From a virus, in the IMG/VR virus record IMGVR_UViG_3300025598_000169, positions 1 to 24,691 of that record: a DNA stretch of 24,691 nt, one strand, 5' to 3'. Of this stretch, positions 1-13,776 are shown in pieces. Both the position numbers and the translations under genes were made by a program. Numbering within the stretch: the first letter of the stretch is position 1; every line of letters starts with the position of its first letter. The notes beneath the pieces were generated by a model that saw only the letters and a list, made by a program, of their open reading frames with translations, had not been told where the DNA came from and searched no databases.

Positions 1-2154
1 GTTTCCCCTAGTCGGTGTAAACTCTTGAACAGGTATTCCCATTCGTCTAAGCTCAAATATAAGGGGAGCACCAGACGCTTTCGCTTCAACAATAAAGCTG
101 TCAGGTTGCCAATCCTTGTACATCTCGTAGGCTCTCTCCTTAAGAGTGGGGAACTCCATACGTTCTTTAAGTGCATCCAATAAAATAATATGTGGATCTT
201 GTTCGTTTTCATTTAAATAAAATACTCCCCAAGTTGTACAGGCTGAATAGTCGGCTCGCTCACTCTTCGTAAATGCCGTATCCCATGACTGGATTATATA
301 GTGACATGGAGGTGGTGTCTCCTTTTCCCACACTTGCCACCATTCTCTTTTAACAATCGCACCTTCTTCACTTGTTGGATCTTGCTGATACTGGGCTTGC
401 CATTTGGATAAAGGTAATTCAATGCGAAGCTTACACAGTTCATCATAACTCCAGAACTCTGGCCATAATGGTTTTTCATTTCGCTTAATCGCTGGAAGGC
501 TGATAATCTCCCATTCATCACCATCTCGGTCAATCATCGCCTGACAAATTTTGCCAGTCAAATCTCTCTTTGACCAGCGAGTATTGTGGGAAACAAAACC
601 ATTGGCTATAAAATTTTCAGTGCGGTCTATTTCAACATCAAATACCTCTGCTTTTCCTGAAAAAGTAATATTAACTATTGGGTCTACTGTGAAGTCGGAG
701 ATACGATGCAGCTCGTTCAAGTATGTTTGCTGTTTTTCCGTATCCAACTGCAAGGTTGCAGTCGTTGCACAATAATCCCCTAATTTTTCCTGTTTCATGG
801 CAGTGGTCAATACATAATTTTCCATTCCAATGGGCACGAGTATTTTTTGTTGTTGGTGGTTGACCGCATACATCACATCTATTATTGCGTTCTTGAACCA
901 TTTTTTCATATTGTTCAACAGTAATTCCATATCGATATTTAAGGCGATGTTTGCGAGCCTCTTCTGTTGATTTTTTTGGCGTATATTTTTTCCCATAATG
1001 TGTGGAACATAAGCCACGACTTGCAATTTTTTTATTACATCCTTCCATTTTGCAAATAATACCTTTCCACTTTCCATGATGCCCCAATGGTTTAAATGGT
1101 GCGTTGGGGTTTTTTCGGTGATAACTTGCTTTTGCTTGACATGGTCCGCATTTACCAGCTTTTGTTTTTGCTCTTGCAAGTCTGTTGCACCCTTCAACGA
1201 TACAAGTAAATCTCCCACTTGAAGATGTTTTAATCTGGTCCATTCTAATACTCCTTCATTCATTACAAGAAACGGATGTCTCTCATTTGCTTGTAGTATT
1301 TTACCAGATTGTGTTTGTATCGTATATATGAAATCAAAACCATTTGACTGCCAGTTATTTACTTTGCTGGTTGATAATTTTCCATGATCAAAAGTGGCAA
1401 CTATATCACCTTGTTTTATATTTTTTAATAAAGTGTTTGTTCCGTCAGCCATTAATACATTTGTATCGCCAACCATACACATCACTACAACAATCGAACC
1501 ACCAGGTTGTAAACGCTGACGTGGACCTGACGTATACCACTCGTAAACCTTATCAAAAACCGAAGGATCTCCTGCTGCCAACGCAGCTTCCTGTTCTGAA
1601 TGAGGATCATCGATAATGAGTAAATCAGCTCCCTTACCAGTAACAGTACCACCAACACCAATAGCAAAATACTCACCATTAGCATTGGTGGACCAACGAC
1701 CAGCAGCTTTGCTATCCGACCGAAGAGATACATTGGGAAATACTTTTCCATAATTTTCTCCATCAACTAAGTTCCTCACCTTCCTACCAAAACCAACCGC
1801 TAGTTCTGCCGTGTTCGAGCATTGAATAATTTTTTTATTGGGGAATTTACCCAAATACCAAGCAGGTAACAGGTAAGAAGCAAATTCAGACTTAGTATGC
1901 CGAGGAGGCATATTGATAATAAGTCGTTTAATTTTTCCACTAGCAATCTCCTCAAATTTAGCTGCCATTAACGCATGATGTTCGCCATGTATAAATCCTG
2001 GCCACATCGTCTGTACAAAACTCATAAAGTCAATCTCGCCCTCTTCCCTGATCACAGATCCAAGGTACGCACTTACAATCGGCATCAATGGCTTCTTCTC
2101 CTCATCAGGCAGAAGCTCAATAATCTCTAACAGCCTTTTTAATTCTTCATCCAT
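1..2154 (-). CDS. terL: Large terminase subunit interrupted by an intein (3' end off window)
   Basis: ATPase/nuclease that drives DNA packaging into the prohead. The frame is open from ATG 2154 to the left edge. The N-extein (225 aa) shows the ATPase core: PPRHTKSE (P-loop equivalent, near nt 1900) and LIIDDPHSEQEA (Walker B, near nt 1610), then LQPGGSIVVVM. After the intein, TRWSKRDLTGK resumes, so the spliced product restores the IVVVM-TRW motif usual in this family. Further on, QSWDTAFTKSERADYSA is the start of the RNase H-like nuclease domain. The start overlaps the upstream gene by 8 nt and has AAGG 7 nt ahead. The intein adds 299 residues, so function requires protein splicing. Family assignment is firm; the C-terminus lies outside the window. 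Confidence 0.95.
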   Translation of the reverse strand, partial: MDEELKRLLEIIELLPDEEKKPLMPIVSAYLGSVIREEGEIDFMSFVQTMWPGFIHGEHHALMAAKFEEIASGKIKRLIINMPPRHTKSEFASYLLPAWYLGKFPNKKIIQCSNTAELAVGFGRKVRNLVDGENYGKVFPNVSLRSDSKAAGRWSTNANGEYFAIGVGGTVTGKGADLLIIDDPHSEQEAALAAGDPSVFDKVYEWYTSGPRQRLQPGGSIVVVMCMVGDTNVLMADGTNTLLKNIKQGDIVATFDHGKLSTSKVNNWQSNGFDFIYTIQTQSGKILQANERHPFLVMNEGVLEWTRLKHLQVGDLLVSLKGATDLQEQKQKLVNADHVKQKQVITEKTPTHHLNHWGIMESGKVLFAKWKDVIKKLQVVAYVPHIMGKNIRQKNQQKRLANIALNIDMELLLNNMKKWFKNAIIDVMYAVNHQQQKILVPIGMENYVLTTAMKQEKLGDYCATTATLQLDTEKQQTYLNELHRISDFTVDPIVNITFSGKAEVFDVEIDRTENFIANGFVSHNTRWSKRDLTGKICQAMIDRDGDEWEIISLPAIKRNEKPLWPEFWSYDELCKLRIELPLSKWQAQYQQDPTSEEGAIVKREWWQVWEKETPPPCHYIIQSWDTAFTKSERADYSACTTWGVFYLNENEQDPHIILLDALKERMEFPTLKERAYEMYKDWQPDSFIVEAKASGAPLIFELRRMGIPVQEFTPTRGN
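583..1479 (-). mobile_element. Class 1 intein, 299 aa, in the terminase ATPase domain
   Basis: Protein-splicing element read in frame with terminase. Block A begins with Cys (codon 1479-1477): CMVGDTNVLMADG. Block B is KILQANERHPFLV, with Asn where Thr is usual three residues before the His. A VGDLL block follows at about nt 1210. The C-terminal blocks are VFDVEIDRTENFIANG and FVSHN, ending His-Asn before Thr +1 of the C-extein. Splicing parts total about 130 aa, the size of a mini-intein. The roughly 170 codons between them, where an endonuclease domain normally sits in frame, contain no stop but resemble no protein I know; they are Lys/Gln-rich and overprinted by the HNH gene in the -1 frame. 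I read all 299 codons and found no stop. Confidence 0.93.
671..1243 (-). CDS. Endonuclease VII-like HNH endonuclease nested out of frame in the intein
   Basis: 190-aa protein of the recombination endonuclease VII family. The catalytic region is CDVCGQPP (first zinc pair), KLCIDHCHETGKIRG (HNH core) and LLCNDCNLAVGYG (second zinc pair). The N-terminal half has two more Cys motifs (CIVEGCNR..CGPC and CKMEGCNK..CSTHY), common in free-standing phage HNH enzymes. The ATG at 1243 follows AAGGAG with 7 nt spacing, so it can be translated on its own. It uses the -1 frame relative to intein and terminase and ends at TAA 673-671, 88 nt before the intein end. Likely role, by analogy, is homing of the intein or a neighbouring site. 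An alternative is expression by frameshifting from the intein frame; no good slippery heptamer is seen at the entry point. Confidence 0.92.
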   Translation of the reverse strand: MDQIKTSSSGRFTCIVEGCNRLARAKTKAGKCGPCQAKASYHRKNPNAPFKPLGHHGKWKGIICKMEGCNKKIASRGLCSTHYGKKYTPKKSTEEARKHRLKYRYGITVEQYEKMVQERNNRCDVCGQPPTTKNTRAHWNGKLCIDHCHETGKIRGLLCNDCNLAVGYGKTANILERAASYLRLHSRPNS

Positions 2155-3857: not shown

Positions 3858-3887
3858 TTGACAAGCAATATTGAATCATGCTGAAAT
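3858..3887 (+). promoter_or_regulatory. Sigma70-like promoter for the plus-strand small-gene operon
   Basis: Perfect -35 TTGACA at 3858-3863, 18-bp spacer, -10 TGAAAT at 3882-3887 (4 of 6 match). It is the only promoter-like signal at the head of the rightward gene run. Transcription would start near 3894. Confidence 0.5.
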
Positions 3888-3894
3888 ACTACTT

Positions 3895-3910
3895 ATCGTC
3901 ATTAGATGAT
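3895..3910 (+). promoter_or_regulatory. Leader hairpin before the first box
   Basis: ATCGTC and GATGAT pair around the loop ATTA (six pairs, one G-U). It occupies the place that hammerhead ribozymes occupy before later boxes, but has no hammerhead core. Confidence 0.35.
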
Positions 3911-3923
3911 ATTTAATTTAATC

Positions 3924-3935
3924 AACTGCTAGGAG
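3924..3935 (+). repeat. AACTGCTAGGAG box, copy 1 (ribosome binding site)
   Basis: First of the repeated 12-mers. Its AGGAG half is a Shine-Dalgarno sequence 8 nt before ATG 3944. The same word precedes genes at 4505, 4853, 5634 and 7525 on this strand, and on the minus strand the genes at 12322 and, ending in AA, 21907. Confidence 0.85.
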
Positions 3936-3943
3936 TTTTTATC

Positions 3944-4042
3944 ATGGTTTTATACAATGTCGCCGTAATGTTTTCTCTAGTCTTATTCTTTATTGGTCTT
4001 GGACTGGGCGTGTATTTATCTTCAATCTTTGAGAGGGCTTAA
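3944..4042 (+). CDS. Single-span membrane peptide, 32 aa
   Basis: One hydrophobic helix, MFSLVLFFIGLGLGVYL, with a short charged C-terminus (FERA). First gene of the operon, directly after box copy 1, and 2 nt before the next start. Function unknown. A second peptide of similar design follows the third hammerhead (5634). Confidence 0.65.
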   Translation: MVLYNVAVMFSLVLFFIGLGLGVYLSSIFERA

Positions 4043-4044
4043 TC

Positions 4045-4440
4045 ATGGGAAATCGTGCCGTCATTAGTTTTAAGGGTGTTTCTACTGGTGTTTATCTTCA
4101 TTGGAATGGTGGGACAGAATCTATCAAAGCCTTCCTAGATTGTGCAAAAGAATTGGGTATCCGTTCGCCTGTTCGTGATTCTTACGGAATTGCTAGATTT
4201 TCTCAACTGGTGGGTAATTTCTTTGGTGGGAATCTCTCTCTCGGTGTTGGTCCTGTTGATTCTCTCGACTGCGACAATGGAGACAATGGGCTGTATATCG
4301 TAGGCGAGGACTGGGACATTATAGGGAGAAAATACCGACCTATTCATTCATACAACAATTTTAAACAAGAATTTTACGAGGGCGTTTTTAATGAGTGCAT
4401 GGAAATCAACAAGCCAATTTTTGAAAGAAAGAATAACTGA
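4045..4440 (+). CDS. Conserved phage protein of unknown function (MGNRAVI family)
   Basis: 131 aa. The start MGNRAVISFKG followed by VYLHWNGGTESIKAFLD, and later RFSQLVGNFFGG, matches a protein type I recognise from many phages and plasmids, without known function. Near full length for that type. The stop TGA (4438-4440) is part of the CUGAUGA core of the first hammerhead, so self-cleavage would cut 36 nt downstream of the stop and leave the coding part whole. Confidence 0.8.
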   Translation: MGNRAVISFKGVSTGVYLHWNGGTESIKAFLDCAKELGIRSPVRDSYGIARFSQLVGNFFGGNLSLGVGPVDSLDCDNGDNGLYIVGEDWDIIGRKYRPIHSYNNFKQEFYEGVFNECMEINKPIFERKNN

Positions 4441-4482
4441 TGAGCCTTGATGAGGCGAAATATCCGAGAGGGTATATTATTC
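4431..4482 (+). ncRNA. Type I hammerhead ribozyme 1
   Basis: All parts are present. Stem I GAATAA (4431-4436) pairs with TTATTC (4477-4482). Core CTGATGA is at 4437-4443. Stem II is GCCT/AGGC with loop TGATG. GAAA is at 4457-4460. Stem III is TATCC/GGGTA capped by GAGA. The cleavage triplet ends T-A at 4475-4476, so the predicted cut is after 4476. The released downstream RNA would start UUAUUCAA followed by the box. The core overlaps the stop codon of the preceding gene. Confidence 0.93.
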
Positions 4483-4483
4483 A

Positions 4484-4495
4484 AACTGCTAGGAG
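4484..4495 (+). repeat. AACTGCTAGGAG box, copy 2
   Basis: Ribosome binding site for the gene at 4505 (9 nt spacing). It starts two bases after hammerhead 1 ends and would lie 8 nt from the 5' end made by cleavage. Confidence 0.87.
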
Positions 4496-4504
4496 AATTC
4501 CAAA

Positions 4505-4786
4505 ATGACAAACTTAGACTATGCAATACATGACGCAAAATTCAAGGAGGGTGCACCAACACACCTCAACGATTATCAAATAAGAGATATCCTCGACCTA
4601 GTGGGGAAAGGATGCCGACAGAGCACTAAAGAGAAACTAGAAAGACGGCTAAATATGCCCTTGACCCTTTTTCAATCTTACGGCATTTATAACAGAATGA
4701 AATTAACCCCTATTGGTGCTGACTATGTGCCTTGCCAGTCTTGGACTGAGGAAATGCGAACATTAAGAGAATGTATTTTAGGGTAA
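4505..4786 (+). CDS. Hypothetical 93-aa protein
   Basis: Begins MTNLDYAIHDAKFKEGAP. The middle DYQIRDILDLVGKG and STKEKLERRLNM look helical. No family recognised. It lies alone between hammerheads 1 and 2: box copy 2 gives its ribosome binding site, and its TAA (4784-4786) is inside stem I of hammerhead 2. After both cuts it would be a monocistronic RNA of about 350 nt. Confidence 0.75.
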   Translation: MTNLDYAIHDAKFKEGAPTHLNDYQIRDILDLVGKGCRQSTKEKLERRLNMPLTLFQSYGIYNRMKLTPIGADYVPCQSWTEEMRTLRECILG

Positions 4787-4832
4787 CTGACGAGGATTTT
4801 TTATCCGAAATTGGCGTGAGCCAATCTTACTC
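4781..4832 (+). ncRNA. Type I hammerhead ribozyme 2
   Basis: Stem I GGGTAA (4781-4786) pairs with TTACTC (4827-4832), one G-U. Core CTGACGA is at 4787-4793 (CUGANGA consensus). Stem II is GGAT/ATCC with a T-only loop. GAAA is at 4807-4810. Stem III is TTGGC/GCCAA capped by GTGA. TC at 4825-4826 is the cleavage dinucleotide. Stem and loop sequences differ from the other two copies while pairing is kept, which argues for selection on structure. Confidence 0.93.
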
Positions 4833-4844
4833 AACTGCTAGGAG
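4833..4844 (+). repeat. AACTGCTAGGAG box, copy 3
   Basis: Directly abuts hammerhead 2 and supplies the ribosome binding site of the gene at 4853 (8 nt spacing). Confidence 0.87.
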
Positions 4845-4852
4845 AATGAAAC

Positions 4853-5086
4853 ATGAAAGAACAAATTAGCAATTATCACAATGCAACAGCCGAACAAGTG
4901 GCGTGGGCTTTGGTGAGCCGTTTAACTGATTCTTACGACTGGGAAACAGTAGATGATGCCGACAGAATCACTTTAGAGGAGTTAATTAGTAAAGCAATTT
5001 CAGAATCAAAGTATTTCAACATGATAGAAGAAGTTTGTATGAATAATGGGGTTATCGAATCCGACTATTTCAACGAGGTGGCATGA
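4853..5086 (+). CDS. Hypothetical 77-aa acidic protein
   Basis: Begins MKEQISNYHNATAEQVAWAL. Acidic and helical (DWETVDDADRITLEELISKA). No family recognised. It heads a two-gene cassette between hammerheads 2 and 3, and overlaps the next start (ATGATG), so the two are translationally coupled. Confidence 0.75.
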   Translation: MKEQISNYHNATAEQVAWALVSRLTDSYDWETVDDADRITLEELISKAISESKYFNMIEEVCMNNGVIESDYFNEVA

Positions 5087-5562
5087 TGGAAATTATTGAA
5101 ACTAAAGTTTATAACTTTGAGGAATTAGACGATTCGGCAAAGGACAGAGCAAGAGACTGGTATAAGCAAGGACTGGATTATTACTGGTGGAATGATGCAA
5201 AAACATCAATAGACGCATTTTGTAAAGAATTTGGGGTAAAGGTAAAGGACTATTCTGTCGGTGCGTTTGCACCATCTTTTATTGATACAACTGCCGAAAC
5301 TCACCATTTTAGAGGACTGAAACTGAAACAGTATGATGCCACACAGATGCCGACTGGTTATTACCTAGATTGCACATTGTGGACAACATTTGTAGATGTT
5401 TGGCAAAAGACTGGTAGTGCTCTCAAGGCATTTAATGAGGCAATAGACGAGGCATTGAAGGATATTGTGAGGGACTGGGAATATCAATATTCAGATGAAT
5501 CCGTTGATGAAGTGCTGATTATCAATGGATACACTTTTACGGAGGATGGGAAAAGATTTTAA
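5083..5562 (+). CDS. Conserved phage protein of unknown function, 159 aa
   Basis: Contains VYNFEELDDSAKDRARDWY near the N-terminus, a signature I recognise from small phage and plasmid proteins of unknown role, and later QKTGSALKAFNEAIDEALK. Start at ATG 5083 or 5086 (tandem ATGATG overlapping the previous stop). TAA at 5560-5562 is immediately followed by stem I of hammerhead 3. Confidence 0.78.
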   Translation: MMEIIETKVYNFEELDDSAKDRARDWYKQGLDYYWWNDAKTSIDAFCKEFGVKVKDYSVGAFAPSFIDTTAETHHFRGLKLKQYDATQMPTGYYLDCTLWTTFVDVWQKTGSALKAFNEAIDEALKDIVRDWEYQYSDESVDEVLIINGYTFTEDGKRF

Positions 5563-5614
5563 GACAAACTGATGAGGATTCAATATCCGAAACTGTCGAG
5601 AGACAGTCTTTGTC
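5563..5614 (+). ncRNA. Type I hammerhead ribozyme 3
   Basis: Stem I GACAAA (5563-5568) pairs perfectly with TTTGTC (5609-5614). Core CTGATGA is at 5569-5575. Stem II is GGAT/ATCC with loop TCAAT. GAAA is at 5589-5592. Stem III is CTGTC/GACAG capped by GAGA. TC at 5607-5608 marks the cleavage site. It begins one base after the stop codon of the preceding gene, as in the other two cassettes. Confidence 0.94.
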
Positions 5615-5615
5615 A

Positions 5616-5627
5616 AACTGCTAGGAG
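5616..5627 (+). repeat. AACTGCTAGGAG box, copy 4
   Basis: One base after hammerhead 3; ribosome binding site for the peptide gene at 5634 (6 nt spacing). Confidence 0.87.
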
Positions 5628-5633
5628 AACAAA

Positions 5634-5723
5634 ATGAAGGATTATTTTTTAGGCACAATCTTTGCCCTTGTTGTTGGTGGTGGTCTTGCCCTTGTTTGGA
5701 TTTTTAGGACTGGGGGGTTTTAA
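5634..5723 (+). CDS. Single-span membrane peptide, 29 aa
   Basis: MKDYFLGTIFALVVGGGLAL, then VWIFRTGGF: one glycine-rich hydrophobic helix. Strong box ribosome binding site. The stop overlaps the next start (TAATG). Similar in size and plan to the 32-aa peptide at 3944; function unknown. Confidence 0.68.
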   Translation: MKDYFLGTIFALVVGGGLALVWIFRTGGF

Positions 5724-5893
5724 TGCAAGCACTTATTTACAACATCAAACTAGAGGTTATTGCTTCCCACACCTTGCCGTCTTTTATTGAGGCATGTGAG
5801 TGGGTTGAGCAATATTTGGGGTGGAATAGTCTTAAAAGAATCGAGACTAAATCCAATGGAAAACTAATCAAAGTATTAACGGAGGAAACATGA
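5723..5893 (+). CDS. Hypothetical 56-aa protein
   Basis: Begins MQALIYNIKLEVIASHTLPS; ends GKLIKVLTEET. Coupled to both neighbours (TAATG before, ATGA after). No family recognised. The N-terminal strand pattern resembles the next small proteins of this run, which also begin with a short beta-rich stretch. Confidence 0.65.
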   Translation: MQALIYNIKLEVIASHTLPSFIEACEWVEQYLGWNSLKRIETKSNGKLIKVLTEET

Positions 5894-6180
5894 GACGGAT
5901 GTTTATTGTTACTGCCTATGAAGTTTTAGTCACAGTAGATGACTGGAATGAACCACAGTATGTAAAGATTGGCATTTTAGAGGATGGTATTCCTCCTCAA
6001 GTTTTATGGGATTCTTGGATTGATTCACACTTGTATTATGAAATGACGAAAGAAGAATTTGCCCAGTTAAAGATTGGAGATGACCTAGACGAAGGCACAA
6101 TAGTTTTAGAGATTATCAAAGAGCCTATTTTTTATACAGATGTTTACCCAATGGAGGAATTAGAAAATGCCAATATTTAA
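5890..6180 (+). CDS. Hypothetical 96-aa protein
   Basis: Begins MRRMFIVTAYEVLVTVDDW, with later YYEMTKEEFAQLKIGDDLDE. Acidic, beta-rich start. Good ribosome binding site (GGAGGAA) inside the end of the previous gene, whose TGA it overlaps. No family recognised. Confidence 0.7.
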   Translation: MRRMFIVTAYEVLVTVDDWNEPQYVKIGILEDGIPPQVLWDSWIDSHLYYEMTKEEFAQLKIGDDLDEGTIVLEIIKEPIFYTDVYPMEELENANI

Positions 6181-6340
6181 TATGGTAGTGACTACGACCT
6201 TTACTAAAGATGTGCAGATTGAGGCACAAACTTTAGCAGAGGCAGAGGAAAAAACATGGGACTGGATTGAAGAGAATGATGTTCTTCATAATGCAGACCT
6301 TGATACAACGATTGAAACTTTGGAGGAATACTATGCCTAA
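6167..6340 (+). CDS. Hypothetical 57-aa acidic protein
   Basis: Begins MPIFNMVVTTTFTKDVQIEA and continues QTLAEAEEKTWDWIEEND, a pattern (beta strand, then an alanine-rich helix) seen in small phage proteins with no assigned role. Preceded by GGAGG about 11 nt upstream. Overlaps both neighbours. Confidence 0.65.
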   Translation: MPIFNMVVTTTFTKDVQIEAQTLAEAEEKTWDWIEENDVLHNADLDTTIETLEEYYA

Positions 6341-7019
6341 TTGGTGCGATAACGCTGTGACTATCAGTCACAAAAATAAACGGAAGATAAAAAAACTGGT
6401 AACTGCCTATAAACGAGGAAGGTTTTTTGCGACTATTTACCCTGAGCCTGATTATTCTGTAACACCAGTCAAAAAGACATACCCTGAGATATCAGCCCAG
6501 TATGCCAAGACTGAAGAAGAAAAGGCACAAGCATATATGCCTACTATCAGTCCTAGTAATTGGTGGGATTGGAGGGTGCAACATTGGGGGACAAAATGGG
6601 AGATTGAAACTAAAGGTTATGACATCAATATCAGCGACCATGAAATCTCTTTTAGTTTTTCTAGTGCTTGGAGTCCTCCAGTAGGAATCTATCAAAAACT
6701 TGTTGAACAAGGTTATGAAGTAGAGGCAACTTACTACGAAAGTGGTTGTGCGTTCTGTGGTTACTGGACAAATGACCTAGAAGATTGCTATGACATTGAA
6801 AATGATTATGAATGGGTGCGTAAAAACATACCTCGAAACATAGACGAGGAATATGGAATCTCGGAGAGCATTAAGGAATATAAACTTGATGACCTACTGG
6901 ATACCATCCACAATATTGAAGAACAATTAAAGACTGCGACTGATACAGAAAAAGCCGAGTTAGAAGCAGAATTGATCAAAACTAAACAGGAATACGAAGA
7001 ATTGGAGGAATCATTTTGA
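6333..7019 (+). CDS. Api92-like / DUF1281-type protein
   Basis: 228 aa, starting MPNWCDNAVTIS, the hallmark opening of the Api92-like (DUF1281) family of phage and plasmid proteins. WWDWRVQHWGTKWEIETKGY in the middle and SAWSPPVGIYQKL are also typical. The C-terminal 50 residues are a charged coiled-coil (NIEEQLKTATDTEKAELEAE). Start chosen at MPNWC (ATG 6333, GGAGG upstream) rather than the longer reading from 6267, which lies inside the previous gene. Function unknown. Confidence 0.8.
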   Translation: MPNWCDNAVTISHKNKRKIKKLVTAYKRGRFFATIYPEPDYSVTPVKKTYPEISAQYAKTEEEKAQAYMPTISPSNWWDWRVQHWGTKWEIETKGYDINISDHEISFSFSSAWSPPVGIYQKLVEQGYEVEATYYESGCAFCGYWTNDLEDCYDIENDYEWVRKNIPRNIDEEYGISESIKEYKLDDLLDTIHNIEEQLKTATDTEKAELEAELIKTKQEYEELEESF

Positions 7020-7258
7020 AAGATTTGAACAAGATTTGGAATGAAAAAGCCGAGAGTTTATTACTTGGCAAACGAATTATTCAGGTGCGTTATTTAGACC
7101 ATGATGAAGCGTGGGAAATGGGTTGGTATGAAAGACCAATAGCATTTCAGGTAGATGATGGGACATGGTTTTATCCCAGTCGTGATGATGAAGGAAATGG
7201 TGGAGGTGCACTTTTCACTTCGCATGAAACTGATTTTTGTTTGCCAGTATTGAGGTAA
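7016..7258 (+). CDS. Hypothetical 80-aa protein
   Basis: TTG start at 7016 overlapping the previous TGA (TTGA) with GGAGG 7 nt upstream. Sequence includes GKRIIQVRYLDHDEAWEMGW, ERPIAFQVDDGTWFYPSRDD and GNGGGALF, beta-rich, of a kind I recall from phage proteins without known role. Soluble. Confidence 0.7.
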   Translation: MKDLNKIWNEKAESLLLGKRIIQVRYLDHDEAWEMGWYERPIAFQVDDGTWFYPSRDDEGNGGGALFTSHETDFCLPVLR

Positions 7259-7261
7259 GCC

Positions 7262-7450
7262 ATGAAACTAGAAATAAAAATGTATTTTTATGATTATGAA
7301 TCTTTAGAAACTGCATTACTTGATGTTGTTGAATCTCTAAAGAATAGTGATATGGGAACAGTAGATAGTTACCCTTTTTACATAGGTTCTTTTAGAAGGG
7401 CAGAGGACTTTGTTGATGTGAAAGATTTAGACAGTCAAGTGCATTGGTAA
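7262..7450 (+). CDS. Hypothetical 62-aa protein
   Basis: Begins MKLEIKMYFYDYESLETALL and ends DFVDVKDLDSQVHW. No family recognised. It follows 3 nt after the previous stop; its stop opens the structured leader at 7451-7507. Confidence 0.65.
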   Translation: MKLEIKMYFYDYESLETALLDVVESLKNSDMGTVDSYPFYIGSFRRAEDFVDVKDLDSQVHW

Positions 7451-7464
7451 GTGCTGTAATCCTG

Positions 7465-7503
7465 ATGCCCTTAATTGGGCATTGGGATTGCCATTTTGCA
7501 ATC
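7465..7503 (+). promoter_or_regulatory. Tandem hairpins before box copy 5
   Basis: ATGCCC (7465-7470) pairs with GGGCAT (7477-7482), and GATTGC (7486-7491) with GCAATC (7498-7503). CTGATG at 7462-7467 recalls a hammerhead core, but the GAAA box and stem I are missing. It holds the same position (stop codon, structure, box, ATG) as the three hammerheads, so it may be a decayed or replaced copy. Confidence 0.4.
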
Positions 7504-7507
7504 GTTT

Positions 7508-7519
7508 AACTGCTAGGAG
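7508..7519 (+). repeat. AACTGCTAGGAG box, copy 5
   Basis: Ribosome binding site of the zinc protein at 7525 (5 nt spacing). Confidence 0.87.
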
Positions 7520-7524
7520 AAATT

Positions 7525-7689
7525 ATGACTAATGTATTTATTAAATTAAATGTTTACGCTATTGATGATGAAGAATGCCCTATGTGTGGCGAAAAAGAAT
7601 TGACATTCATTACAAGTTGTAAAGCATGCCATTGTGGTGAATGTGGCACATGGGTAAGTCTTGATGGTCAAATTTTGGAGGGCGAATGA
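7525..7689 (+). CDS. Small zinc-ribbon-like protein, 54 aa
   Basis: Seven cysteines: CPMC in the first half, then CKACHCGECG. Two Cys pairs suit one zinc ion. Too short for any enzyme; perhaps a nucleic-acid or protein binder. Its stop overlaps the next ATG (ATGATG). First gene of the last cassette of the run. Confidence 0.7.
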   Translation: MTNVFIKLNVYAIDDEECPMCGEKELTFITSCKACHCGECGTWVSLDGQILEGE

Positions 7690-7898
7690 TGCCGTTTATA
7701 GTTGAGCAAGAGTTTATCTATGGTTGGGAGAATGTTTGGCACAATGGTGAAACAGGAGAGCCGACTGTATATGAAACGAAAGAACAAGCACAGGCAGAAC
7801 TGGATGAGTTTATCTCTGATACCGAACAGGATTACAGAGAAGGCAATTTGGAAGAGCCGTATTTACATGATGAATTTAGAATTGTGGAGGTTTTATGA
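7686..7898 (+). CDS. Hypothetical 70-aa acidic protein
   Basis: Begins MMPFIVEQEFIYGWENVW; TVYETKEQAQAELDEFISD is a common phage small-protein pattern (strand, then acidic helix) of unknown role. Overlaps both neighbours as ATGA. Confidence 0.68.
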   Translation: MMPFIVEQEFIYGWENVWHNGETGEPTVYETKEQAQAELDEFISDTEQDYREGNLEEPYLHDEFRIVEVL

Positions 7899-8080
7899 AT
7901 CAAATTAAGCGTTATATGATTGAGTATTTTGAGAGTGACGATCCATCATACGATTGTTATTTGGGTGAAGATGCTTACGAGGCGATTCAAGCATTTAAAG
8001 AAGAAAATCCTCAAGCAAAAATAGAAAATGTTTGTTTAATTCTTGATTTGGAGGATGAGATTTATGAAAGTAATGATTGA
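7895..8080 (+). CDS. Hypothetical 61-aa acidic protein
   Basis: Begins MNQIKRYMIEYFESDDPSYD; DAYEAIQAFKEENPQAKIEN resembles the helix of small phage proteins that also have a Tyr/Glu-rich strand. GGAGG 6 nt before the ATG, inside the previous gene. Confidence 0.65.
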   Translation: MNQIKRYMIEYFESDDPSYDCYLGEDAYEAIQAFKEENPQAKIENVCLILDLEDEIYESND

Positions 8081-8336
8081 AATTAACTTGCCTGATGGAC
8101 AAAAGATTCCTACTGCTGAGGATATTATTCGATTAACTGATCCTGACTGGTTAGCCGAATGGTGGCACATTGATGATGTCAAAGGAGTTGATGGTGCTGA
8201 AGATTTATCTGATGAAGATTGCAGAGAAGTCTTGCGACTTGTTGGCAAAGAGCACAAAGCAGATATCGGTATTAACTGGGAAGAAATTGAGTATTGGGTA
8301 AACCATGTCAAAGAGGAGATTGAAAATGCCTACTAG
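8064..8336 (+). CDS. Hypothetical 90-aa acidic protein
   Basis: Reads MKVMIEINLPDGQKIPTAED, then WLAEWWHIDDVKGVD. Start placed at ATG 8064 (GGAGG 9 nt upstream) rather than at 8043. Overlaps the previous gene by 17 nt and the next by 11. No family recognised. Confidence 0.65.
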   Translation: MKVMIEINLPDGQKIPTAEDIIRLTDPDWLAEWWHIDDVKGVDGAEDLSDEDCREVLRLVGKEHKADIGINWEEIEYWVNHVKEEIENAY

Positions 8337-8463
8337 GGAAATTGTTAGTTATGCTTTAGAAGTAACTTGGAATGATGGAACAAAAGAAATCAAGACAGAT
8401 TTTCCTGAGATTGAATACATCAACGAATATTTAGACGAGTTAGAAAGGGAAGAGAATGACTGA
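8326..8463 (+). CDS. Hypothetical 45-aa protein
   Basis: MPTREIVSYALEVTWNDGTK followed by an acidic helix (YINEYLDELEREEND). GAGGAG about 8 nt upstream in the end of the previous gene. No family recognised. Confidence 0.6.
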   Translation: MPTREIVSYALEVTWNDGTKEIKTDFPEIEYINEYLDELEREEND

Positions 8464-8662
8464 GACTATAAAAATTGATAGAGATACCATGATTAAACAG
8501 TTGATTGATTCAACATTTGATCACATAGAACAATGTCCTGAAACTTTAGACGAATATTTAAAGTATGGATTTAAGGGTTTTGAAAATTATAGTGATTCAG
8601 AATTATTGCGAGAGTATCGAGATTACATCAGTGAAATTATTATGGAGGTGGAAAATGAATAG
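8456..8662 (+). CDS. Hypothetical 68-aa protein
   Basis: MTETIKIDRDTMIKQLIDST and later SDSELLREYRDYISEIIMEV, an all-helical acidic protein. Overlaps both neighbours by 8 nt. No family recognised. Confidence 0.65.
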   Translation: MTETIKIDRDTMIKQLIDSTFDHIEQCPETLDEYLKYGFKGFENYSDSELLREYRDYISEIIMEVENE

Positions 8663-8810
8663 TGATTTATTAGACGAATATTGCGAAGAAGAGTTTGGTC
8701 ATAAGGACTGGTCAATGGATTGGGATGTATATGGTAATTTAAAAGTTACTTTTTATAAAGATCCAAGACCTGAATACTATCAAGATGAAGAAGAAGGGGA
8801 AGAAGAATGA
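8655..8810 (+). CDS. Hypothetical 51-aa acidic protein
   Basis: Start at ATG 8655 (GGAGGTGG upstream): MNSDLLDEYCEEEFGHKDW, ending in a run of acidic residues (YYQDEEEGEEE). A longer reading from 8565 runs inside the previous gene and was not used. No family recognised. Confidence 0.6.
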   Translation: MNSDLLDEYCEEEFGHKDWSMDWDVYGNLKVTFYKDPRPEYYQDEEEGEEE

Positions 8811-8974
8811 AACGCTATGATGTAACTTATTACCTTAAACGAGAGGTCACCATTACTGTGGATGTGCCCAATGGTGAAGATCCTGAAGAGTATGCTTGGG
8901 ATGAACTTGAATTAAACAAGGGAGAAGAAATTATTGATTCTGATTACTATGAGGTTGATCCCCATGAATTTTAG
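8807..8974 (+). CDS. Hypothetical 55-aa protein
   Basis: MKRYDVTYYLKREVTITVDV then EYAWDELELNKGEE: strand-strand-helix plan like the other small proteins of this run. ATGA overlap with the gene before and 11-nt overlap with the sigma-like gene after. Confidence 0.62.
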   Translation: MKRYDVTYYLKREVTITVDVPNGEDPEEYAWDELELNKGEEIIDSDYYEVDPHEF

Positions 8975-9245
8975 CCAATGTGGTGGTAAAGTTCCTGTGT
9001 TTGTAGGGGGAGATTCCCCTTACAAACTGGTGGACTTCCCAAGTAAACCCCAGTTTAAGCGACTCTATGAATCGTTTAAACCAGAGTTGATTGAAAAGTA
9101 TTGGGTAATGATGAACATGAGAGCCGAAGGTAAAACTTTGGCTGAGGTCGGAACACGATACAATGTTTCACGAGAAAGAGTTAGGCAAATTGAGGCAAAG
9201 TTTTTAAAGAGATTAGCAGTTTCTTTAATGCCTGAGACGCTTTAA
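8964..9245 (+). CDS. Sigma70 region 4-like DNA-binding protein
   Basis: 93 aa from ATG 8964 (MNFSQCGGKVPVFVG). The C-terminal half, GKTLAEVGTRYNVSRERVRQ followed by IEAKFLKRLA, is the helix-turn-helix of sigma70 region 4, the part that reads the -35 element, with the usual RERVRQIE signature. Regions 2 and 3 are absent, so it is not a full sigma factor; it could act as an anti-sigma-like or -35-binding regulator, or a small transcription activator. Last gene of the plus-strand run; its end overlaps the convergent primase gene by 65 nt. Confidence 0.72.
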   Translation: MNFSQCGGKVPVFVGGDSPYKLVDFPSKPQFKRLYESFKPELIEKYWVMMNMRAEGKTLAEVGTRYNVSRERVRQIEAKFLKRLAVSLMPETL

Positions 9246-12884: not shown

Positions 12885-13035
12885 TTTCTTTTTCCCTGAT
12901 TAACTTAAATCTTAATTTTCCGTTTTCATCTATGTATAAAGGATATGGTAAATCTTTTATATCCTTAATTTCAGTAACACATGAATGACCAATTTCTACA
13001 TCTTGTTTACAAAAACTGCATATCATCTTAAACAT
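12871..13035 (-). CDS. Small Cys/His protein, 54 aa
   Basis: From ATG 13035 (AAAGGTG 6 nt upstream): MFKMICSFCKQDVEIGHSCV, with CxxC and HxC that could bind zinc, then YPLYIDENGKLRFKLIREKE. A longer reading from 13116 runs into the structured non-coding region and was rejected. First protein gene downstream of that region. Confidence 0.65.
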   Translation of the reverse strand: MFKMICSFCKQDVEIGHSCVTEIKDIKDLPYPLYIDENGKLRFKLIREKENDSK

Positions 13036-13084
13036 TTCTTTCACCTTTCCATATAAATATATCCTTGAGGGAGCGAAACGAAAT

Positions 13085-13568
13085 TGAAAGTGAGGTTTCC
13101 CCCAACCCCACAGCATGGGATTGAAGGAAAACTCAACTCGATATCCTGTCGGTCGCTTACTTCATATCAAGTTAATGAACCATTGGTAGTCTAGTTCACA
13201 CATCGGTGCTTTCTACTCTGTACTACGAGTTCGTTTAAGTGTCACCGAATGATCTCTATTGTTCTCAATCGTTCTCAGACAGAGTAAAGACCACGCTTCC
13301 ACACCTTGAGCCTAAACAATCTTCTTTGCTCACTATCACGCTAATTTAGGAAGAACGTAAACGTATGTCTTTTTGCCGTTCTACTCAACTTCAAGGGCAA
13401 CTTTCACACATACTCAGACCGATAGACCTAAATCATCGTGCTAGGTGCGAATAAGAACATAACAAAATGGCATAAATCTATACACGTTAAATTAACGTAT
13501 ATAAAAAACTCAATTTGTTAACAAGAAATTGTTTCAGTTCTTGTTGTTCTTAGTCACACCTAGCAGTT
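13085..13568 (-). ncRNA. Candidate large structured RNA (about 480 nt)
   Basis: No ORF of note on either strand, but many helices pair. P1 joins 13545-13565 with 13439-13459 (about 20 of 21 pairs) and encloses two hairpins (13520-13527/13538-13545 and 13480-13490/13492-13502). Others are 13427-13440/13337-13350, 13408-13413/13363-13368 extended by GGCAA/TTGCC, 13243-13251/13201-13208, 13164-13173/13135-13144 and 13126-13134/13092-13100 with an inner 7-bp stem. At least four helices hold a G-U pair only when read on the minus strand (A-C on plus), which sets the strand. Loops are purine-rich. The 5' end starts with a box-like AACTGCTAGGTG. Ornate phage RNAs such as GOLLD and ROOL are the obvious comparison; I cannot assign it to either. 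Confidence 0.6.
13557..13568 (-). repeat. Variant box AACTGCTAGGTG inside the structured RNA
   Basis: Same first ten bases as the box. Here it is not followed by a protein gene but forms the 5' arm of helix P1 with CACCTAGCA at 13447-13439. Confidence 0.75.
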
Positions 13569-13578
13569 GAAACTATAG

Positions 13579-13605
13579 ATTAAACTATTTCAAAATATTT
13601 GGCAA
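13579..13605 (-). promoter_or_regulatory. Possible weak promoter for the structured RNA
   Basis: TTGCCA (13605-13600) and TTTAAT (13584-13579) on the minus strand, each 5 of 6 to consensus but with a short 15-bp spacer. It sits just upstream of the box-like 5' end. Confidence 0.3.
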
Positions 13606-13607
13606 GA

Positions 13608-13648
13608 GAAAAAAGAAAGAACCCCAAACTTTTTAGGAGTGGGGTTCT
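13608..13648 (-). terminator. Intrinsic terminator, minus strand
   Basis: AGAACCCC (13648-13641) and GGGGTTCT (13625-13618) form an 8-bp stem, followed on the minus strand by TTCTTTTTT. There is no T-run after the stem on the plus strand, so direction is clear. It ends the small RNA and probably most read-through from the 13.8-21.9 kb genes. Confidence 0.8.
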
Positions 13649-13691
13649 GGGGAGGGATCAGGGTGGATCCAAGTCTGCGTTGCACAAACGG

Positions 13692-13703
13692 AACTGCTAG
13701 GAA
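13692..13703 (+). repeat. Box copy AACTGCTAGGAA, inverted relative to the local RNAs
   Basis: On the plus strand it has no gene after it; read on the minus strand it is the antisense segment of the small RNA. Together with 13541-13568 it makes an imperfect inverted repeat of about 25 bp around the terminator. Confidence 0.75.
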
Positions 13704-13746
13704 CCTAGAACAACAATTTAGACTTGTACATGGGGTGTACCCACTA

Positions 13747-13776
13747 AGTATAGACGAAATTTTAAGAAAGTGTCAA
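13747..13776 (-). promoter_or_regulatory. Strong sigma70-like promoter of the small RNA
   Basis: Minus-strand TTGACA (13776-13771) and TATACT (13752-13747) with an 18-bp spacer. The -35 lies in the 3' end of the HNH gene. Predicted start near 13740. Confidence 0.7.

Follow-up and report, generated by a model that had tools for sequence, protein, structure and literature searches.

Type I hammerhead ribozymes in series in a lake bacteriophage and a recurring stop-ribozyme-start layout in virus contigs

The phage record and its three hammerheads

The window analysed was the whole of the IMG/VR virus record IMGVR_UViG_3300025598_000169, a lake bacteriophage sequence of 24,691 bp. Tailed-phage families were found among its genes: terminase subunits, Erf, exonuclease, RusA, a ParB-like protein, a primase and a helicase. 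A run of small genes, mostly without a known family, occupied the + strand from about 3,900 to 9,245, with the terminase genes on one side and the primase on the other, all on the - strand. When the window was compared by Megablast with 50,697 phage records, no match was obtained. The features of the run considered here were as follows:

3924 to 3935, + strand: ribosome-binding (RBS) box without a hammerhead, preceding the first + strand operon gene; a cassette swap with the relative L042 has its junction here
4045 to 4440, + strand: small gene, 131 aa, no Pfam or PHROG match
4431 to 4482, + strand: hammerhead 1, type I; predicted cleavage after A4476 (H17 = A); 67.5 bits with model R1
4438 to 4440, + strand: stop codon TGA of gene 4045-4440, within the CUGAUGA core of hammerhead 1
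4484 to 4495, + strand: RBS box AACTGCTAGGAG after hammerhead 1
4505 to 4786, + strand: small gene, 93 aa, sole gene of the predicted piece 4477-4826
4781 to 4832, + strand: hammerhead 2, type I; predicted cleavage after C4826; 67.9 bits with model R1
4784 to 4786, + strand: stop codon TAA of gene 4505-4786, within stem I of hammerhead 2
4833 to 4844, + strand: RBS box AACTGCTAGGAG after hammerhead 2
4853 to 5086, + strand: small gene, 77 aa, first of two genes on the predicted piece 4827-5608
5083 to 5562, + strand: small gene, 159 aa, overlapping the preceding stop; PHROG 10310 match
5560 to 5562, + strand: stop codon TAA of gene 5083-5562, directly 5' of hammerhead 3
5563 to 5614, + strand: hammerhead 3, type I; predicted cleavage after C5608; 76.4 bits with model R1
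5616 to 5627, + strand: RBS box AACTGCTAGGAG after hammerhead 3
5634 to 5723, + strand: short ORF, 29 aa, 3' of hammerhead 3
7449 to 7507, + strand: element E, a two-hairpin RNA in the hammerhead's slot, with the box next (7508-7519)

The core, CUGANGA (C3UGANGA) and GAAA (G12AAA), was intact in all three hammerheads. Three helices surrounded it, the A15.1-U16.1 and G10.1-C11.1 pairs were present, and stems II and III were closed with stem I open, which is the type I form. Stem I was exactly 6 bp, stem II 4-5 bp and stem III 6 bp (A15.1-U16.1 counted). The cleavable UH before the 3' strand of stem I was UA in hammerhead 1 and UC in hammerheads 2 and 3. Each hammerhead was folded alone as a single strand, and the minimum free energy (MFE) structure, at -11.5, -12.7 and -13.4 kcal/mol, was exactly the hammerhead. 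A strict pattern of core and GAAA over the whole 24,691-bp record matched these three and no other copy. The initial annotation of the window had described three type I hammerheads with core, three stems and cleavable UH, and sequence and folding confirmed them; its cleavage positions 3' of H17, at 4476, 4826 and 5608, were also correct. Judged from the sequence, the three are genuine-looking and probably functional ribozymes. A is the rarer cleavable base at H17 in this hammerhead family (3 of 77 unique), so slower cutting is predicted for hammerhead 1, which has A. The relatives L042, L059 and L081 had C at this position.

Several other features of the record were observed. The operon leader (window 3858-3935) contained a TTGACA-like promoter element and a small palindrome (TCAYTAGRTGA), followed by the box and the first gene, and palindromes resembling TCAYTAGRTGA were found at the first gene of relatives. 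Window 12900-13760 was long and poorly coding, with diverging near-boxes at 13557(-) and 13692(+). An Rfam Betaproteobacteria-1 RNA was matched in the relative L037 at 13172-13286 (-) with 88.9 bits and an E value of 4.6e-15, which hints at a betaproteobacterial host. TerL of the window (583-1479, -) had an 897-nt intein at aa 226-524; the near relatives L021 and L039 had a clean intein-free site, VVVM|TRWS. Inside the intein, in another frame of the same strand, the ORF 671-1243 (-) had an RBS of its own and encoded an Endonuclease VII/HNH protein of 190 aa (PF02945, 7e-19). This nested out-of-frame endonuclease is probably a homing endonuclease, and among 33 records searched it was present only in the two records of this phage.

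Conservation of the fold and reach of detection

The stem sequences differed among the three window hammerheads, and the initial annotation had taken them to be under structural selection nonetheless. Covariation was investigated with an alignment of 19 gap-free relatives. All 304 of 304 pair cells (100%) held standard pairs, and two-sided compensatory change was found in 13 of the 16 pairs. The covariation score was 0.855, against 0.214 ± 0.026 in shuffled alignments. Sliding the alignment by ±1 to 3 columns reduced the paired cells to 31-41%, and RNAalifold recovered the same hammerhead fold unaided. The core was invariant in alignment A2 except at N7. Because pairing was a condition of the scanner that chose the rows of the 19-relative alignment, only the figures of the box set and the close relatives are unbiased. 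For the box set, 2.9 million viral contigs were scanned for the core, GAAA and the final ten bases of the RBS box, ignoring pairing; this gave 95 stretches, with a full hammerhead in all but about nine (roughly 86 of 95). Loss of pairing in close relatives, named beforehand as a result that would count against the hammerheads, was looked for in six of them, of about 96% identity or more, and was not seen: all 16 pairs were kept in all three hammerheads, and the sole stem change was in hammerhead 2 of L039, L042 and L096, where both bases of a G-C pair had changed to give A-U. The compensatory changes in both sets uphold structural selection, and together with the core invariance they indicate selection on the RNA fold.

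The covariance model R1, built from these sequences, gave 153 matches in 87 sources at E ≤ 1. A strict hammerhead scanner was applied to the real loci and to 1.95 Mb of first-order shuffled loci, and it found 295 hammerheads in the former and 0 in the latter. That the window copies are chance or decayed look-alikes could be argued from Rfam, which makes no hammerhead call, but the shuffled control, the covariation and the retention in relatives make this extremely unlikely.

Rfam scans of the window and its sub-regions called no hammerhead. A covariance search with Rfam Hammerhead_1 (RF00163), proposed earlier as a check, found no match at E ≤ 1 in the record (gathering score 34 bits), a result that bears on the reach of the model and not on the structure. 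The nearest Rfam hammerhead match was RF03152 RAGATH-1-hammerhead at 19.6-20 bits, far under its gathering score of 56.3. The window copies share the hammerhead core and three-way junction with RF00163 and RF03152. Since they are invisible to the Rfam hammerhead models, such junctions have probably been missed in phage genomes annotated in that way. The pattern of hammerhead plus box was also run on 84,980 bacterial and archaeal genomes and gave 14 matches, all by chance and none with a proper hammerhead fold. Isolate or near-isolate phages with related proteins (Manatee Spring ctsTn925; parts of Acidovorax AP1 and Pseudomonas UAntarctica) had no hammerhead. The 196,280-bp record behind L053 was rejected as a chance pattern match.

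Layout at the gene junctions

All three window hammerheads lie between a stop codon and the next start, which supports the intercistronic placement described earlier. A start in or one base after a stop codon, as initially annotated, holds for hammerhead 3, directly after TAA, but not for the other two: hammerhead 1 begins 7 nt and hammerhead 2 3 nt before the stop. Cutting at the predicted sites would give a piece of 350 nt (gene 4505-4786), a piece of 782 nt (overlapping genes 4853-5086 and 5083-5562) and the remainder. The idea of gene-sized pieces is therefore kept as predicted cutting into short mRNAs and given up as single-gene pieces, since the piece between hammerheads 2 and 3 is bicistronic.

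Since the layout had to be judged free of the box, viral contigs were scanned with a box-independent pattern of core, CGAAAC and GUCUU only. At least 168 unique hammerheads in at least 105 loci were obtained. The pattern fixes the innermost stem I bases and bounds the loop lengths, so the figures apply to this subfamily but not to phage hammerheads in general. Among the matches listed, stem I was exactly 6 bp in 157 of 168 unique hammerheads, and loop II had five nt in 147 of them, mostly U-N-A-(A/U/G)-U. An A stood directly 5' of stem I in 150/164 and directly 3' in 149/164 of the matches listed. Again among the matches listed, the end of an upstream ORF lay no more than 45 nt ahead of the ribozyme and no more than 20 nt past C3 in 155 of 164 unique hammerheads, an ATG ORF followed within 45 nt in 151 of 164, and both were found in 144 of 164. 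All multi-hammerhead loci among the matches listed (44/44) kept to one strand. In the box set the predicted cut would leave a leader of 24-28 nt (10-90%); the median leader of the general set, among the matches listed, was 26 nt with a Shine-Dalgarno (SD) and 23 nt without. The striking feature is thus a rigid layout over at least about 190 contigs: stop, ribozyme, start, on one strand, with a predicted 5' leader of about 23-26 nt.

The compact subfamily is characterised by a stem I of 6 bp, a stem II of 4 bp, the loop II UNADU and an unpaired A on both sides of stem I. Watson-Crick pseudoknots from loop II to either flank were not above those of permuted loops. The conserved UNADU, the fixed 6-bp stem I and the flanking As suggest that a non-canonical contact may form between loop II and the stem I side.

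Whole records held up to nine hammerheads each. Nine were found within about 4.3 kb (4448-8718) of the 51,152-bp record behind L126. In L207 there were seven, and where an RBS would stand each had a conserved 3' flank instead (AAAAGTCAGGTGCAGACTATAACAGGCAC or a variant of it); L206 had a five-copy array. In 26 of 144 box-set copies one U was added after A9, before stem II (CUGAUGA-U-GGGG..CCCC-GAAA), and every stem was paired; the loci of this extra-U subfamily were L006, L010, L029, L036, L040, L043, L054, L056, L065, L072, L080 and L094. Stem III carried an added hairpin-rich insert of about 40 nt in the hammerheads at L006 2359-2452 and L068 3495-3585.

The 12-nt box AACTGCTAGGAG is a ribosome-binding site specific to one phage lineage. 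It follows each window hammerhead after 0-1 nt, as had been noted for all three, with a start codon soon after. Within the record the exact box also occurred without a hammerhead, at 3924, 7508 and 12328(-). Across hammerhead-bearing contigs there were 159 distinct box contexts: 77 directly after a hammerhead, 14 after element E (strict rule) and 68 after something else, the last including further E-like double hairpins, operon leaders and a few classifier-missed hammerheads with long inserts. Of the 154 hammerheads that had a downstream ATG among the matches listed in the box-independent scan, 69 had no recognisable SD before the gene. Since hammerheads elsewhere lack the box and any SD, the ribozyme and the box stand side by side but do not form a single device, and the earlier view of the translation signal as part of the hammerhead device was not supported. 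The close spacing in the window, with the box 0-1 nt past stem I, would suit a switch in which uncut RNA masks the SD and cleavage exposes it. The predicted SD accessibility was unchanged, however, with a mean of 0.47 uncut and 0.46 cut (Wilcoxon p 0.78, 73 cases), and the hammerheads without a recognisable SD also count against it. Such a switch is very unlikely, and the proposal that cleavage matters by freeing the SD near the new end was not supported.

At some junctions element E occupied the slot of the hammerhead: a pair of hairpins side by side, joined by a short G-rich linker and followed by (A)UUAA and then the RBS box. Over 24 hand-segmented copies both hairpins showed compensatory changes, and the z of the window copy was -3.8. 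A weak likeness to Rfam osmY RNA was seen (E 0.012 on 111 bases). A pattern of the commonest form matched 39 stretches, and the element also occurred in L011, L012, L015, L026, L030, L031, L067, L078, L091 and others.

Operon processing, rival readings and known systems

The account considered likely is that functional compact type I hammerheads cut the operon co-transcriptionally at its gene junctions, giving short mRNAs with uniform leaders and uncoupled genes. Structure, covariation, position, strand and gene shuffling are its observed basis; cleavage in this phage, the effect on stability and translation, and insulation are inferred. On this account the phage polycistronic RNA would be cut at gene junctions as it is transcribed. 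The downstream message would begin with a 5'-OH, and its leader would be short (about 26 nt in the lineage of this phage); the upstream message would end in the ribozyme hairpins and a 2',3'-cyclic phosphate. In bacterial RNA decay, less attack by 5'-monophosphate-dependent and 3'-OH-dependent nucleases is expected on such ends, and these usual nucleases would enter the cut ends poorly. The likely purpose would be that uniform short leaders and protected ends uncouple every gene, or pair of genes, from those beside it; genes could then be swapped at the junctions with their expression context unchanged.

Gene shuffling was evident at the junctions. About 30 gene families stood upstream and 34 downstream of hammerheads, with partners exchanged, and one downstream protein family was found behind seven upstream families. 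Comparison of the window with L042 showed a swap, beginning at the box, of one segment for another gene and a fourth hammerhead. The bicistronic middle piece, the A at H17 of hammerhead 1 and the absence of a score with Rfam Hammerhead_1 count against the operon-processing account. Uniform leaders could also come from genome compactness, with no selection on the leader itself. The full hammerhead was the MFE structure in 71 of 77 box-set cases folded alone and in 21 of 77 with 30-40 nt flanks; as so few fold fully in context, some RNA may misfold and co-transcriptional folding would matter.

Three further readings were weighed against operon processing. Terminating ribosomes might keep the core unfolded, so that cutting occurs only once upstream translation stops, which would link the fates of neighbouring genes. 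Two of the three window stops lie inside the ribozyme, and among the matches listed the last base of the stop fell at -7/-6, -1, +3 or +13 from C3 in 116 of the 155 hammerheads with an upstream ORF. These positions are, however, those of stop triplets supplied by the core itself (UAA before C3, UGA in CUGA), so compactness alone explains the clustering, and many upstream genes end before the ribozyme; such coupling is considered unlikely. The exchange of gene partners around junctions and the cassette swap at the box would also fit a role of hammerhead and box mainly as seams of mobile gene cassettes, with RNA cutting incidental or tolerated. Box junctions without a hammerhead swap genes too, and the selection on the fold argues against tolerated cutting, which leaves this role rather improbable.

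The serial arrangement also brings to mind ligation of the pieces between successive hammerheads into circular mRNAs, or their re-splicing, and ends with 5'-OH and 2',3'-cyclic phosphate are chemically right for an RtcB-type ligase. Yet RtcB (PF01139) was absent from 40 hammerhead-bearing virus records, which may be fragments and whose host could serve with its own enzyme, and near-identical tandem units, as in a circular-RNA or retroelement-type context, were not found. In the arrays of Perreault et al. (2011), ligated products were sought and none was found (PMC3088659). Ligation or re-splicing is highly improbable.

A broader form of the operon-processing account can be put forward tentatively, and it may well not hold: a standard module common to many environmental phages, made of a stop, a compact hammerhead of fixed geometry, a leader of about 25 nt and a start, would act as a natural insulator for cassette swapping in hosts with and without Shine-Dalgarno. 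In the lineage of the window its slot would alternatively be filled by element E, maybe a processing element or a new self-cleaving RNA. Two known systems are comparable. In RiboJ-type synthetic insulators a hammerhead stands just before the RBS and its cleavage standardises the 5' leader; RiboJ is an engineered, sTRSV-derived ribozyme with a hairpin behind a promoter, whereas the window holds a natural intercistronic array. The RNase III processing hairpins of T7-like phages cut polycistronic RNA between genes, using a host protein enzyme rather than a ribozyme, and element E might be nearer to these than the hammerheads are.

Serial phage hammerheads were reported in 2011, so the window array is not the new kind that the initial annotation had supposed. 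Perreault et al. described multiple hammerheads flanking individual small prophage genes in A. tumefaciens, A. caulinodans and C. scindens (their Fig. 3) and proposed processing into operon- or gene-length mRNAs; three tandem arrangements cleaved in vitro and one in E. coli (PMC3088659). The window array is like these clusters in that several close hammerheads lie in series on one strand around single small genes of phage origin. The clusters of 2011 were mainly in bacterial genomes and of types I, II and III, whereas the window array has a single type I architecture, fixed stem lengths, a stop in or at the ribozyme and a lineage-specific RBS box, and the wider set reaches nine copies on one virus contig. 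The HF1/HF2 halovirus hammerhead, 13 nt upstream of a start codon (PMC3088659), is likewise in a tailed DNA virus near a start codon; unlike those of the window it is single, has a variant core for high salt and belongs to an archaeal host. In the open-licence literature, no later work on serial phage hammerheads was found beyond the 2011 paper and reviews, and no description was found of the fixed geometry, the stop-ribozyme-start layout with and without SD, or the co-occurring element E. The role of prokaryotic hammerheads was called an open question in a 2017 review (PMC6155905). As the layout recurs so rigidly, and the predicted 5' end falls at nearly the same distance from each start codon, the purpose of phage hammerheads becomes testable.

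Other hammerhead types were present in the same virus loci: type III in L118, L145, L164, L203, L215 and L226, and type II in L158 and L164. Several of these type II and III copies sit just 5' of a start codon.
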